A DNA stretch of 64,000 bases from a virus. The DNA is taken from positions 124,001 to 188,000 of IMG/VR virus record IMGVR_UViG_3300042302_000394; one strand, 5' to 3'. The translations under genes were made by a program, and so were the position numbers. The notes under the pieces were generated by a model. The model was given only the letters and a program-made list of their open reading frames with translations, was not told where the DNA came from and did not search any database. This document shows positions 7,200-37,465 of the stretch, piece after piece. How positions within the stretch are numbered: position 1 is the stretch's first letter; the number at the start of each line of letters is the position of its first letter.

Positions 7200-8204
7200 T
7201 TATTTGATCTGTGTCCAAACACGTTCACGGATCTGCTTTGTCAAGCTGTCAGGCAATGCCACATAGTCTAGGTCGGCAGCATCTTTCTTACCATTCTTGA
7301 ATGCCCAATCAAAGAACTTTAATACTTCGTCACTAGTAGCTTTGTTAGCAGGAGTTTTGTACATGATGATAAAACTTGCTGAACTCACTGGCCATGCATT
7401 GGGATTCTTTTGATCCACGATGCTAAGTCCCATACCTGGAACACTGAACCAATCAGCACCATCTGCTGCGGCAGCAAATGTCAAGTCGTCCGGGCTTACA
7501 TACTTGCCACTCTTGTTTTGTAGTTGCAGGAATGTCATGTTGTTTTTCTTAACATAAGCATACTCTACATAACCAATTGAACCTTTGATTCTGTTCACAT
7601 TGGCAGCAACACCTTCATTGCCCTTGCCACCTACTGAAGTGGCTGCTGGCCACTTGACTGCGGCGCCACGACCCACACGTTGTAGCCACTCAGGGCTTAC
7701 TGTGGCCAAGTAATCGGTCCAGTTGAATGTTGTACCTGAACCATCAGCACGATGAACAATGGTGATGTTCTCGTTAGGTAGGTTCTTGCCTGGATTTAAT
7801 GCAGCCAGTTTAGGGTCATTCCACTTGGTGATGTTGCCCATAAACACTTCAGCCATAACTGGACCAGTGATGCGTAGTTCTCCGGGTTTGAATCCGTCTA
7901 AGTTTACCACAGGAACTGTGCCGCCAATGATAGCAGGAAATTGAACCTGTCCGTTCTTGTCCAAGTTCTCACCGCTTACCGGAGCATCTGTTGCACCAAA
8001 GTCAACGGTCTTTGCATTGATTTGACGAATGCCACCCGAACTTCCGATGCTTTGATAGTTCATGCCTGTACCTGTGGCTTTTTTGTAGCCTTCAGCCCAC
8101 TTGGCATAGATTGGGAATGGGAAGGTAGCTCCGGCACCTGTAATGTCTGCGGCTTGTGCTGACACTGCTACGGCTGCAAATAGAATAGCAAATAATTTTT
8201 TCAC
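7200..8204 (-). CDS. pstS: Periplasmic phosphate-binding protein PstS
   Basis: I choose the GTG at 8204: AAGGAG lies seven bases upstream and it gives a classic signal peptide (MKKLFAILFAAVAVSAQA) cut before ADITGAG. The 334-residue protein keeps PstS phosphate-site segments: GAGATFPFPIY, SIGSSGGIRQI, DFGATDAPV, RADGSGTTF. It binds inorganic phosphate in the periplasm and delivers it to the host PstCAB transporter. Sequence style resembles betaproteobacterial PstS, suggesting host origin. It has its own terminator and an upstream Pho-box-like repeat, so the host PhoB regulator probably controls it. Phage pstS genes are known from marine cyanophages. Confidence 0.92.
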   Translation of the reverse strand: MKKLFAILFAAVAVSAQAADITGAGATFPFPIYAKWAEGYKKATGTGMNYQSIGSSGGIRQINAKTVDFGATDAPVSGENLDKNGQVQFPAIIGGTVPVVNLDGFKPGELRITGPVMAEVFMGNITKWNDPKLAALNPGKNLPNENITIVHRADGSGTTFNWTDYLATVSPEWLQRVGRGAAVKWPAATSVGGKGNEGVAANVNRIKGSIGYVEYAYVKKNNMTFLQLQNKSGKYVSPDDLTFAAAADGADWFSVPGMGLSIVDQKNPNAWPVSSASFIIMYKTPANKATSDEVLKFFDWAFKNGKKDAADLDYVALPDSLTKQIRERVWTQIK

Positions 8205-8239: not shown

Positions 8240-8268
8240 AACACAAAACGATTACAATATGATTACAA
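8240..8268 (-). promoter_or_regulatory. Pho-box-like operator of pstS
   Basis: On the minus strand the heptamer TTGTAAT occurs twice (8262-8268 and 8251-8257) separated by four bases, with a weaker third unit TTGTGTT (8240-8246) in the same 11-base register. This is the layout of a PhoB box (CTGTCAT-N4-CTGTCAT). AT-rich -10 candidates (TATTAAT) follow before the ribosome binding site. Confidence 0.7.
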
Positions 8269-8283
8269 TTTTAAGAAATTTTT

Positions 8284-8312
8284 GCCAAAAAGAAACCCGC
8301 CGAAGCGGGTTC
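8284..8312 (-). terminator. Terminator of the tmRNA gene
   Basis: Minus strand reads AACCCGC-TTCG-GCGGGTT followed by TCTTTTT: a seven-pair stem with a stable TTCG loop and a U-tract. Confidence 0.85.
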
Positions 8313-8731
8313 TGCTATTTTGGGTGACAAGGTATAACTACCTCGTGGAGATCACGCTGCTAGGCGGTCTTCTCCAAAGTATGCATCGTTTGCATTTAGG
8401 TTTTTTGCTTCTGCGACCGGGTCACCCCAATCCTAACGGCTTCTACATTGCCGGACTGTCCATTTCAATACTCTTGACCCAATCGATCCTGTGTCAGGCC
8501 CATTATAAAACATACTCACCCGAATGGACATTGTCACCTCCGCCTACTGTCGGAAATATGTTTTATGGTGGACCTGGCGGGCACTGCCCCCGCGTCTTGA
8601 ATCCTTTTCTGTCTACTTCATACAGTCTTAACTTTTAACAGACTTCCCAGGGTGTGTTTGGCCTCTGCTAAGCCTGCAGGAATCTCACCTACTGCATATC
8701 TGCTACGCAAACTTGCCCCTGCGAAAGTCTA
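8313..8731 (-). ncRNA. ssrA: Circularly permuted (two-piece) tmRNA
   Basis: Transcribed from a strong promoter, this RNA first gives the acceptor part, ending GGTCCACCA at 8566, then a spacer (8502-8565), then the coding part that starts GGGCCTG at 8501. GGGCCTG pairs over seven positions with CAGGTCC next to the 3' ACCA, and the third pair is G.U, the alanine identity element. The coding part continues like other tmRNA 5' ends (GACACAGGATCGATTGGG). The spacer ends are a ten-base inverted repeat, ATAAAACATA, that would hold the two acceptor strands together for processing. A stem GCGGG/CCCGC takes the T-arm place, but its loop reads GGCAGTG, not the usual TTCRANN. The tag frame lies at 8352-8393. 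tmRNA with SmpB rescues stalled ribosomes and tags the unfinished protein. Confidence 0.9.
8352..8393 (-). other. tmRNA tag reading frame (ANDAYFGEDRLAA)
   Basis: Fourteen codons from GCA at 8393 to TGA at 8352 encode ANDAYFGEDRLAA. It begins AND and ends LAA like bacterial ssrA tags (E. coli ANDENYALAA). The segment sits inside a long-range stem formed by GGGTGAC near 8421-8428 and GTCACCC near 8322-8328. Confidence 0.88.
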
Positions 8732-8737
8732 TTATTT

Positions 8738-8767
8738 ATTATACAACAGGATTGCCTTGACTGTCAA
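8738..8767 (-). promoter_or_regulatory. Sigma70 promoter of the tmRNA gene
   Basis: TTGACA (8762-8767) and TATAAT (8738-8743), both perfect, with an 18-base spacer. The promoter lies inside the end of the upstream coding gene, whose stop codon (8739-8741) is within the -10 box. Confidence 0.85.
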
Positions 8768-9230
8768 GTTCCATCCAAGTATGATCACCCATATATTTTA
8801 CGTGAGCAATATATTCATAATCTTCAGGAGCACTACTTGACCATCCATCCGGTCCCTGAAACACTAACAATGTTTTTGATTTCCTCTTGTCCCAAGTTAA
8901 CCAGTATGATTGTCCTAGCACAGGGCTGAATTGATATTCAGCGGCATGTACTGCGTCAGTTATTTCTAACCGTCGTTTGATCTGCTGGGCTTGTGTTTCA
9001 AGTACAGATACTAACTGCATAATCCGATCATATTCTTGCTGGGCATATATCCTAGCATGGTTGATCATGATATCTTTTTGCTTAGTTACGGGAACTAGGT
9101 CAAATTTGATACCGCCTGCTTCTGTGGGATATTCACTGACGTTTCTATTGAAGAACGGAATTAACGAACCAGTAGATGTAGAATCATAACTGGTTCTTCC
9201 TTTGGCAAGATTTGAACGTTCATCAGCCAA
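8739..9230 (-). CDS. DUF2452-like protein, unknown function
   Basis: The 163-residue protein starts at a TTG (9230) that overlaps the stop of the gene upstream by eight bases. The centre is helical (about 50-90), and the C-terminal half (FSPVLGQSYWLTWDKRKSKT, then YIAHVKYMGDHTWMEL) resembles DUF2452 proteins, which have no known role. I am only moderately sure of the family. The end of the gene contains the tmRNA promoter. Confidence 0.6.
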   Translation of the reverse strand: MADERSNLAKGRTSYDSTSTGSLIPFFNRNVSEYPTEAGGIKFDLVPVTKQKDIMINHARIYAQQEYDRIMQLVSVLETQAQQIKRRLEITDAVHAAEYQFSPVLGQSYWLTWDKRKSKTLLVFQGPDGWSSSAPEDYEYIAHVKYMGDHTWMELDSQGNPVV

Positions 9231-12084: not shown

Positions 12085-12411
12085 TCATACTCTAAAACTT
12101 TCACCGCATCCACATCGGTCACGTTCGTTAGGATTCTTAAATTCAAATCCTTCATTAAGTCCGTTGCGTACCCAGTGTACTTCCAATCCATTAACATACG
12201 GATAAGATTTTCCATCTACCCAAACTTTAACACCGTTGCTTTCGTAGACAAATTGATCGCGAGTTACTGGAACATGATCTACAAATTCTAACGTATAAGC
12301 CAAGCCAGAACACCCTGTGGTTTTTACACCGATACGTATCCCTAGCCCTTTGCCTCTTCGTTCTAGATGTTTCTTAACTTTAGCGGCAGCTTGTTCCATT
12401 AATGTTATCAT
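12085..12411 (-). CDS. iscA: A-type iron-sulfur carrier IscA
   Basis: 108 residues with all three conserved cysteines (Cys34 in TTGCSGLAY; Cys100 and Cys102 in DRCGCGESF). IscA accepts iron or [4Fe-4S] clusters and passes them to target enzymes. Its ATG directly follows the iscU stop, so the two are co-translated. A second A-type protein (ErpA-like) is encoded at 57439-57762. Confidence 0.92.
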
Positions 12412-12786
12412 TTAATGTTTTTTACGATAATCTTCAACAGCAGCTTTAATAGCATCTTCAGCCAATATACTGCAATGTATCTTAACGGGCGGTAGTGCTA
12501 ATTCTTCAGCAATCTGGCTATTACGAATGTTACTAGCATCATCCACATGCATTCCTTTAACCATCTCAGTGACAAGACTGGAGCTGGCGATTGCTGAACC
12601 ACATCCATATGTCTTGAAACGAGCATCTCTAATAATACCATTTTCATCTACCTTTATCTGTAATTTCATTACGTCACCGCAAGCAGGTGCACCGACCATG
12701 CCTGTACCTACAGTGTCGTCTATTTCAAACTTACCTACATTACGAGGGTTTTCGTAATGGTCAATTACTTTATTTGAGTATGCCAT
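12412..12786 (-). CDS. iscU: Iron-sulfur scaffold protein IscU
   Basis: 124 residues (E. coli 128), read from ATG 12786. The ligands Cys36, Asp38, Cys62 and Cys105 are present, with His104 next to the last. The LPPVK motif (98-102) bound by the HscA chaperone is intact. IscU builds [2Fe-2S] and [4Fe-4S] clusters from sulfur supplied by IscS, which is not encoded here and must come from the host. Only five bases separate it from nrdB. Confidence 0.92.
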   Translation of the reverse strand: MAYSNKVIDHYENPRNVGKFEIDDTVGTGMVGAPACGDVMKLQIKVDENGIIRDARFKTYGCGSAIASSSLVTEMVKGMHVDDASNIRNSQIAEELALPPVKIHCSILAEDAIKAAVEDYRKKH

Positions 12787-12790
12787 AGTT

Positions 12791-13891
12791 TTATAAATCC
12801 GGTAATTCGTCGTAACTAACTGCATCACTCATAACACCGATGACATAGTTAGTACTTTCGTTTTCTTGCAAGGCGGTCTGTTTCTTATTGATATTAACGT
12901 GTTTGTTGAACCAAGGGATAGGACTAAACTTAGGATGCTCTCCTTGATACTTAATACCAATTTCCTTTAAACGCACAAACGCAGTGTAGTCAACAAAGTC
13001 AGACAGGATAGTAGCATTAAGGCCAATAACTGGTCCTAGCTTGAACAAATAATCTGCCCACTCTTTTTCTTCTCGGATGACATCCATATAGAGGGTATAG
13101 ACTTCTTCTGCACATTCTTCTTCAAGTTTTACAAAGTCTGTATCATCTTTAGTCACGTTGTTGATCAGCCAGGCAGTCCATTCTGTATGTAACAACTCAT
13201 CTTGTAGAATCAAACTGATGATGTTACCGTTGCCAATATAGATCTTATTCTCTACCATTGCTAGACTTGTGGCAAAACTTACCATGAAGCGTAGAGCCTC
13301 CAATGCATATGATGCGTGTAAGGCCAACCATATGGCTCGCTTATGAGTATGGAGTTCAATTTCCTCGCCCAACTCTTTACGACAGTTGAGCTGATGAAGA
13401 TCCTCATAGTAGCGACCAATGTTAGCAGCCATGCCAACAATTTCAGCCGTGTCGTGAATCTTGTTAAATTCTTCTTTAGGTACGCCATAGACATTACGAA
13501 TAATGTGACTGTAAGATTTTGAGTGAATATTTGTTTCAAAGAAACTCCAATTGCTTACTAATGCTTCTAGTTCAGGAATACTGATAACAGGTTGAAATAC
13601 TTGATTAGGTGCGCGACCTTGAATACTATCTAATGCTGTCTGACGCAGTAAGTTACTAGTAAAAATATGCTTAACTGCATCACTTGCATCCTTGTGATCC
13701 ATCTTGTCTTTAGTAAGACTGATCTCTTCTGGGACCCAAAAGAATCCACGAGCAAGTTCTTCGTACTTGGTAATCTTAGGGTACTTGACTTCTTCAAAGC
13801 GTTGCACAGTAACTGGACCAGCTGGATCCAGAAACATTGTACGTTTTAGATAGTTTGTTTGTTTTGATAGATTGTATTGTTCTTTGCTCAT
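12791..13891 (-). CDS. nrdB: Class I ribonucleotide reductase beta subunit
   Basis: 366 residues of ferritin-like fold. Metal ligands can be placed at Asp88, Glu119, His123, Glu198, Glu232 and His235, and the radical tyrosine at Tyr127 (HSKSYSHIIRN). Between the second ligand Glu and the His there are three residues (ETNIH), one more than the usual ExxH of E. coli NrdB, which may bend the helix at the metal site. The C-terminal tail (SYDELPDL) is the type that docks on NrdA. It supplies the radical used to make deoxyribonucleotides for phage DNA. Confidence 0.94.
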   Translation of the reverse strand: MSKEQYNLSKQTNYLKRTMFLDPAGPVTVQRFEEVKYPKITKYEELARGFFWVPEEISLTKDKMDHKDASDAVKHIFTSNLLRQTALDSIQGRAPNQVFQPVISIPELEALVSNWSFFETNIHSKSYSHIIRNVYGVPKEEFNKIHDTAEIVGMAANIGRYYEDLHQLNCRKELGEEIELHTHKRAIWLALHASYALEALRFMVSFATSLAMVENKIYIGNGNIISLILQDELLHTEWTAWLINNVTKDDTDFVKLEEECAEEVYTLYMDVIREEKEWADYLFKLGPVIGLNATILSDFVDYTAFVRLKEIGIKYQGEHPKFSPIPWFNKHVNINKKQTALQENESTNYVIGVMSDAVSYDELPDL

Positions 13892-36550: not shown

Positions 36551-37465
36551 TTAGAATGTTATGCTACCGGACCCGGTGAAGGTATAGATTCTAAATCCAC
36601 CAACTGTGGTAATTGTAGGGCTTCCTGTTGTGGCTGATGCTGCATTGAATCTGTCTGGATAGCGAATGATGACAATGCCAGATCCACCACCACCGCCAGC
36701 ACTGGTAGTGTTGCCGGCGCCACCGCCGCCACCACCTGTATTAGAAGTTCCCGGGGCAAACCCGCCGCTAGCTCTACCACCTTGGCCACCACCGCCAGCG
36801 CCTCCTGCAGGAAAAAAGCCAGCCGTTCCAGCAAAATGTCCGCCGCCTCCGCCGCCTGCATAGGTTACGGCATTTCCTGAAATAGCCGATGATGTTCCTG
36901 CGCCGCCAGCGCCGCCGCCAGTAGTATTGCCGGCAAATCCAGTACCACCTGCTCCACCACCACCACCAGCTGAAAACTGTGGGCTACCGGGACCTCCTTG
37001 TCCACCATTACTACCTTGAGACGGAGTTGTAGACGGGGTATTACCGTCGCCGGCAGCTCCACTAGTATAGGAGCCACCTCCTCCTGAACCACCCGCAGCA
37101 CCTGCTCCGGCATTGCTAACACCACCTCTACCTCCACCGGTAGAAGTTATAGAAGAAAACACAGAGTTCACTCCGCTTGCAGCAGTAGTGCCGCCACTAC
37201 CTCCTGCACCTACTGTTATTGTATAACTTACTTGACTTGCAATACTTAAAGTTCCGGTTCTAAATCCTCCTGCGCCACCACCACCATAATTGCTGCCGCC
37301 GCCGCCGCCAGCAACAACTAGATATTCAACTTCAGATACGATAAACCCCGGTGGCCATCTATTAAAGTTTTGCTGTTGTTCACTAATAGACCATATACCT
37401 GAAGATCCTAGCAGAGGATCTGGTGTATTCAACGAACCTATAAGGCCGCCATTATTCCTGCCCAT
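36551..37465 (-). CDS. Glycine-rich adhesin, cassette copy 1
   Basis: 304 residues with repeated Gly-rich loops and short strands (GVNSVFSSITSTGGGRGG). It ends GFRIYTFTGSGSITF like its paralogue at 34732-35670. Comparable to T-even gp38 adhesins. Overlaps the upstream gene at its start. Variation in the Gly-rich loops between the two copies would give different receptor ranges. Confidence 0.75.
   Translation of the reverse strand: MGRNNGGLIGSLNTPDPLLGSSGIWSISEQQQNFNRWPPGFIVSEVEYLVVAGGGGGSNYGGGGAGGFRTGTLSIASQVSYTITVGAGGSGGTTAASGVNSVFSSITSTGGGRGGVSNAGAGAAGGSGGGGSYTSGAAGDGNTPSTTPSQGSNGGQGGPGSPQFSAGGGGGAGGTGFAGNTTGGGAGGAGTSSAISGNAVTYAGGGGGGHFAGTAGFFPAGGAGGGGQGGRASGGFAPGTSNTGGGGGGAGNTTSAGGGGGSGIVIIRYPDRFNAASATTGSPTITTVGGFRIYTFTGSGSITF

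Follow-up and report, generated by a model that had tools for sequence, protein, structure and literature searches.

A circularly permuted phage tmRNA kept near clpX and preceded by a conserved pseudoknotted RNA element

A phage genome fragment carries, on its minus strand, a gene for a circularly permuted tmRNA which lies about 4 kb upstream of a phage clpX gene and directly behind a conserved pseudoknotted RNA element. The same record also encodes ClpP, and the locus is probably a phage-supplied module for ribosome rescue and protein disposal. Neither the tmRNA-clpX linkage nor the RNA element was found described in the open PubMed Central text. The window analyzed is a 64-kb stretch, bases 124,001-188,000 of a 207,813-base IMG/VR virus record, and positions given here without another label are positions in it. 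The neighboring genes have a phage character and code for ribonucleotide reductase, collagen-like tail fibres, PstS and a T4-type baseplate/tail-fibre connector domain. The named relative closest in ribonucleotide reductase is Xanthomonas phage X1, with 60% identity. About ten identical contigs represent the same population, and in one relative the tmRNA is syntenic within flanking DNA that is 69-75% alike. We call this large phage freshwater-type only as a label, taken from the kind of its relatives and the aquatic bias in PMC9004378 and not from a sample record. Relatives have beta-type tmRNAs and tags like ANDERFALAA, a hint that the host may belong to Betaproteobacteria. Phage IscA-like and NifU/IscU genes were also seen, at 12085-12828 of the window and at L235:4125-4514.

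The permuted tmRNA gene and its phage counterparts

In an Rfam covariance search the permuted tmRNA model RF04321 matched 8627-8352 (minus strand) over the complete model (1-213) with 101.9 bits, the cut-off being 47. The alpha_tmRNA model RF01849 scored 55.5 bits (cut-off 50) in a partial match, model positions 40-240 of 355, and the beta_tmRNA model scored 59 bits, below its cut-off of 84. ARAGORN finds no tmRNA gene at the locus matched by RF04321, and DNA relatives in named phages were limited to short matches. A first-pass annotation, made from the letters alone, had proposed a phage-encoded circularly permuted tmRNA and had suggested covariance models as its check; this proposal is borne out by the two models above their cut-offs. 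It is nearly certain that the RNA at 8627-8352 is, as an RNA, a functional tmRNA supplied by the phage.

The acceptor piece (8627-8566, minus strand, delimited by the RF04321 match and the pairing table) ends in an encoded CCA (8568-8566) and precedes the coding piece, which is the gene order by which permutation is recognized. The coding piece extends from its 5' end at 8501 to about 8320, the RF04321 match reaching 8352 and the 3' end being approximate. Across the cut, the acceptor 5' strand GGGCCTG (8501-8495) and the 3' strand CAGGTCC (8576-8570), followed by the discriminator A8569, can be read directly as seven pairs with G3.U70 (G8499.U8572), exactly as annotated before. Between the two pieces lies a spacer (8565-8502) predicted to be removed on processing, whose ends prolong the acceptor stem with 12 bp, TAAAACATATTT / GAGTATGTTTTA. 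Acceptor strands and spacer together fold at -32.1 kcal/mol (z -4.5). This fold agrees with the processing stem that had been claimed for the spacer, as does the comparison of nine viral sequences whose tags are of the family found here. A spacer stem of 9-13 bp, the position of which was not fixed beforehand, is found in them at identical offset in 9/9 with differing letters, and the acceptor stem has two-sided changes at positions 2, 4, 5 and 6; the search for these sequences required seven pairs and G3.U70, so both of the latter features are conditioned in the nine. Within the coding piece the frame GCA...GCG TGA (8393-8352) translates to the tag already read there, ANDAYFGEDRLAA followed by a stop, 13 amino acids that end in RLAA and are hydrophobic at the terminus. 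One earlier remark fell: the loop of the T arm GCGGG GGCAGTG CCCGC (8593-8577), which lies within the acceptor piece, had been taken for deviant, but the RF01849 consensus at that place is GGCgGUA. The supposed anomaly is rejected, as GGCAGTG is close to the alphaproteobacterial consensus.

The claim of an own promoter and terminator also holds. A sigma70-type promoter, TTGACA-18-TATAAT, matches at 12/12 positions (8767-8738, minus strand), with its -10 box overlapping the end of the upstream ORF 8739-9230 and a predicted transcription start at about 8731. In the whole window only four sites score perfectly, every one of them on the coding strand, against about 0.1 expected by our own estimate from base composition. 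In the ClpX lineage and its relatives, 11 of 33 loci have a strong promoter (at least 11/12) just upstream of the tmRNA, compared with 11 of 170 control windows. Downstream, the sequence and its fold give an intrinsic terminator, GAACCCGC-TTCG-GCGGGTTT followed by CTTTTT (8312-8293). Beyond it, at about 8246-8270 on the same strand, two direct repeats TTGTAATC with 11-base spacing resemble a Pho box and stand before the start of pstS, which is probably a GTG near 8204.

A permuted, independently transcribed phage tmRNA had been called unusual. The permuted phage tmRNA stands but is no novelty: that of methylophage Melnitz was published in 2022 (PMC9004378) and more are present in named phages; taken alone, the gene is a further case of a published phage type. 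Among 133 structures of phage tmRNAs, 53 are two-piece, and 50 of these are aquatic (PMC9004378); 79 phage tmRNAs are listed in another report (PMC11915505). We found permuted tmRNAs above cut-off in named phages of Xanthomonas, Stenotrophomonas, Pseudomonas, Acinetobacter, Caulobacter, Mesorhizobium, Erythrobacter and Synechococcus and in one crAss-like phage, several of them unannotated. Xanthomonas phage XacN1 (AP018399) has two permuted matches of equal score, one near each end, at 37,231 and 356,026, possibly a pair situated in a terminal repeat, and in Erythrobacter phage XM05 (L003) the permuted tmRNA adjoins a gene for an HslV-family peptidase, a possible further pairing of tag and protease. 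With the tmRNAs described by RF04321 and RF01849 the present one shares the order of acceptor piece, spacer and coding piece, G3.U70, the encoded CCA, a T-loop of the form GGCRGTN and a tag beginning with AND. It differs from RF01849 tmRNAs in scoring only 55.5 bits, in being phage-borne and in its RLAA-ending tag of 13 residues, present in no cellular genome scanned. Melnitz and pelagiphage Mosig (PMC9004378) likewise carry a permuted tmRNA in a T4-like aquatic phage, but unlike the present phage they lack ClpX and ClpP. The Melnitz tag, ANDNYVPVDYALAA, is a different one, and its ssrA is reportedly associated with a glutamine riboswitch (PMC9004378), while the leader element of the present phage (8732-8632) is not a glnA motif, with no Rfam match to a glnA or glutamine riboswitch.

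Tag peptide, ClpX and ClpP

The tag was sought by a degenerate pattern. The family ANDAYFG[ED][ED]R turned up in 22 viral contigs, and a scan of 84,980 bacterial and archaeal (GTDB) genomes, which would miss a host outside GTDB or a tag on a contig shorter than 3 kb, gave no match; a cellular source of the tag is ruled out as far as these genomes go. The exact T-arm was met in genomes only in two standard tmRNAs from CPR MAGs. Variation within the tag family is confined to E/D swaps and synonymous codon changes, and the family sits on both alpha-like and beta-like tmRNA backbones. Tags vary across the ClpX lineage, yet LAA closes 19 of the 26 distinct sequences. LAA is the classical ClpX degron. 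Because the amino acids are conserved across backbones with synonymous changes and most tags end in LAA, the tag is under selection.

Phage ClpX, full-length (409 amino acids, 4666-3437, minus strand) and overlooked in the first-pass annotation, was identified by NCBIfam, Pfam and alignment to solved ClpX. It scores 530 bits with the NCBIfam ClpX equivalog (cut-off 359) and 502 with TIGR00382 (cut-off 371), and it retains intact the zinc-binding domain, the Walker motifs A (GPTGCGKT) and B (YIDEID), the GYVG pore loop, the RKH loop, the arginine finger, sensor 2 and VGF, a ClpP-docking loop of the IGF type. ClpP is encoded at G000:C1:38178-38762 of the same record (PF00574, 255 bits), with the Ser-His-Asp triad intact (GQACSMG, MIHQP, DRDTFMSADEA) and a mature N-terminus LVPMVVE. 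The record gave no PF01668 match for SmpB, so only the RNA and the protease parts are phage-borne and the phage depends on SmpB of the host; the SspB adaptor is absent from the phage as well. Also present are 39 tRNA genes, which together serve all 20 amino acids, at G000:C1:83,000-92,500 (L142, L143) and in the last kb of L145.

Relatives of the phage ClpX were found in 186 viral contigs. When whole records of 50 other viral contigs with a ClpX relative were searched, 39 had a permuted tmRNA above cut-off, always upstream of clpX and on the same strand, in 38 cases within 12 kb and at a median distance of 4.7 kb. Ten had no tmRNA match and one more had a match only below cut-off. Two of the records without tmRNA end just upstream of clpX, and around seven such loci Rfam matched nothing at all within 10 kb. 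The scaffolds are mostly of beta type, the alpha type being found in the present phage, G024 and G063, while the tmRNA of G057 is intermediate, with a weak match to both models; differing scaffolds at a kept position mean that the scaffold has been exchanged. In L055, L071 and L080, from a related phage, the tmRNA acceptor piece is encoded with a final ACCT where ACCA would be expected; its last A would have to come from a CCA-adding enzyme. ClpP is also present in two large relatives (229 and 323 kb); the portions of G103 and G097 that were read yielded none.

The linkage could be attributed to inherited gene order, since clpX belongs to a gene block conserved across the lineage (67-76 of 76 loci). 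In such a case the tmRNA would only rescue and recycle ribosomes, its tag would be functionally unrelated to phage ClpX, and ClpX and ClpP would serve replication, head assembly or host takeover. We consider this unlikely, although several observations speak for it. Many phages with a permuted tmRNA have no ClpX, which means that a phage tmRNA can do without ClpX; PA5oct and Atu_ph07 possess ClpX and ClpP without a clear tmRNA; and PHROGs assigns ClpP-like proteins mostly to head proteases. Against it, the ClpP found here is full-length, cellular-like and away from capsid genes. Gene order alone also fits poorly with the flanks of the tmRNA, where pstS and a DUF2452-like ORF are present at the same place in only 15 of 76 loci while the tmRNA was kept in 39 of 50, two counts with different denominators. 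The constancy of the tag residues across backbones and the prevalence of LAA endings, as signs of selection on the tag, likewise count against it.

Two further explanations concern the tmRNA itself. It could interfere with the tmRNA system of the host, as a decoy or an inhibitor; a precedent is phage DS6A, whose tmRNA has no tag and reportedly inhibits the endogenous tmRNA (PMC11915505). The scaffold of foreign, alpha type in a mostly beta-type lineage would suit such a role, but the complete tag ORF with its stop, needless for a decoy, is conserved at the amino-acid level, and we regard the decoy as very improbable. That the gene is functionless captured host DNA, for example left by integration at ssrA, can be practically dismissed: tmRNA genes are common integration sites (PMC9004378), but the identical population of contigs, the synteny in a diverged relative, the covariation, the constraint on the tag, its absence from the GTDB genomes scanned and the own promoter all stand against it.

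The combination of ClpX, ClpP and tmRNA in one phage has arisen independently in unrelated jumbo phages, namely Bacillus phage G, Sinorhizobium phage Phosso, Lak-A1 and LR756511, and has been reported for AP-J-162 (PMC11242549). ClpX of these jumbo phages is about 47-51% identical to the present one; their tmRNAs, however, are not beside clpX and are mostly of standard form, unlike the permuted tmRNA described here. Prevotella phage Lak-A1 (W19, MK250016) encodes SmpB (184 bits), ClpX and ClpP and has a standard tmRNA match of 54 bits, apparently a complete set for trans-translation and ClpXP. In huge phages tRNAs, tmRNA and SmpB have been reported (PMC7162821), in a text which makes no mention of Clp proteins and describes no linkage.

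The pseudoknotted RNA element upstream of the tmRNA

The tmRNA had initially been extended to 8731, but 8732-8632 (minus strand) is a separate conserved RNA element at the 5' end of the transcript. To read 8731-8632 as the 5' part of the acceptor piece is rejected, as homologues can be as much as 3.9 kb away from the tmRNA, and some stand at loci that give no tmRNA match. The element consists of five helices, defined by covariance model and alignment, and folds with z -4.3. Homologues were found at over 30 loci, and the covariance model R1, built partly from this very sequence, gives it 85.8 bits (E 1e-20). In an alignment of 27 sequences RNAalifold predicts P1-P4; the pseudoknot, columns 68-73 with 98-103 (8669-8664 and 8642-8637 in the window), is beyond its prediction and is among the best covarying columns. 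With the pseudoknot included, 97.8% of cells are paired and 15 of 25 pairs have two-sided changes, values reached by 0 of 500 shuffles, and slid partners pair at 40-48%. Rfam at E<=5 gives nothing on 8632-8732 except the edge of the sub-threshold beta_tmRNA match, nor does it match the element in six relatives, and BLAST detects none in named phages.

By the covariance model the element is present in 44 of 77 ClpX loci, in all of them upstream of clpX and on the same strand; it occurs once in the window and once in each of the stretches of G078 and G103 that were read, and the tested tmRNA phages that lack ClpX gave no match. Its distance from the tmRNA ranges from 5 bases in the present phage, where it directly precedes the tmRNA, to 3.9 kb. 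Elsewhere it often stands 10-50 bases before the start codon of IscU (directly so in L235) or of a small signal-peptide, His-rich or glycine-zipper protein, a position as for a riboswitch that controls translation. Such placement suggests that the leader is most likely a cis-regulatory, riboswitch-like RNA, and possibly a new riboswitch class.

A role for tmRNA and ClpXP in infection

The preferred reading, a phage-supplied module for ribosome rescue and protein disposal, can be arranged as follows. The sigma70-type promoter would give a single transcript of pseudoknotted leader, permuted tmRNA precursor and terminator. In the precursor the spacer is predicted to fold as a hairpin continuing the acceptor stem, which RNase P and 3' processing would excise, leaving two parts that would remain joined by base pairing: an acceptor piece with ...ACCA at its end and, from 8501 on, a coding piece. 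Host AlaRS could charge this tmRNA through G3.U70, and host SmpB would bring it to ribosomes stalled during infection. Work in trans-translation with the SmpB of the host is likely. The stalled chain would gain the tag (A)ANDAYFGEDRLAA, and it is plausible that tagged chains go to ClpXP, partly supplied by the phage, to be unfolded by phage and/or host ClpX and then degraded by ClpP. Together with the 39 tRNAs this would keep translation running and recycle ribosomes and amino acids during infection. A stronger form, in which a new pseudoknotted riboswitch controls the tmRNA and the phage-only tag is preferred by phage ClpXP as a tag-and-destroy pathway of its own, is doubtful at present; if true, the infection gains a degradation channel separate from that of the host.

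The RNA element is in any case new as a structured RNA; it covaries strongly, likely has a part in regulation and could represent a new class of riboswitches. Published ideas on why phages carry tmRNAs range from ribosome rescue to recycling of host proteins. In this lineage the tmRNA has stayed near clpX through exchanges of its scaffold and tag, and ClpP is aboard too; this points towards ClpXP tagging as what has been selected, and through the linkage of tmRNA and clpX the selected function of a phage tmRNA becomes testable.
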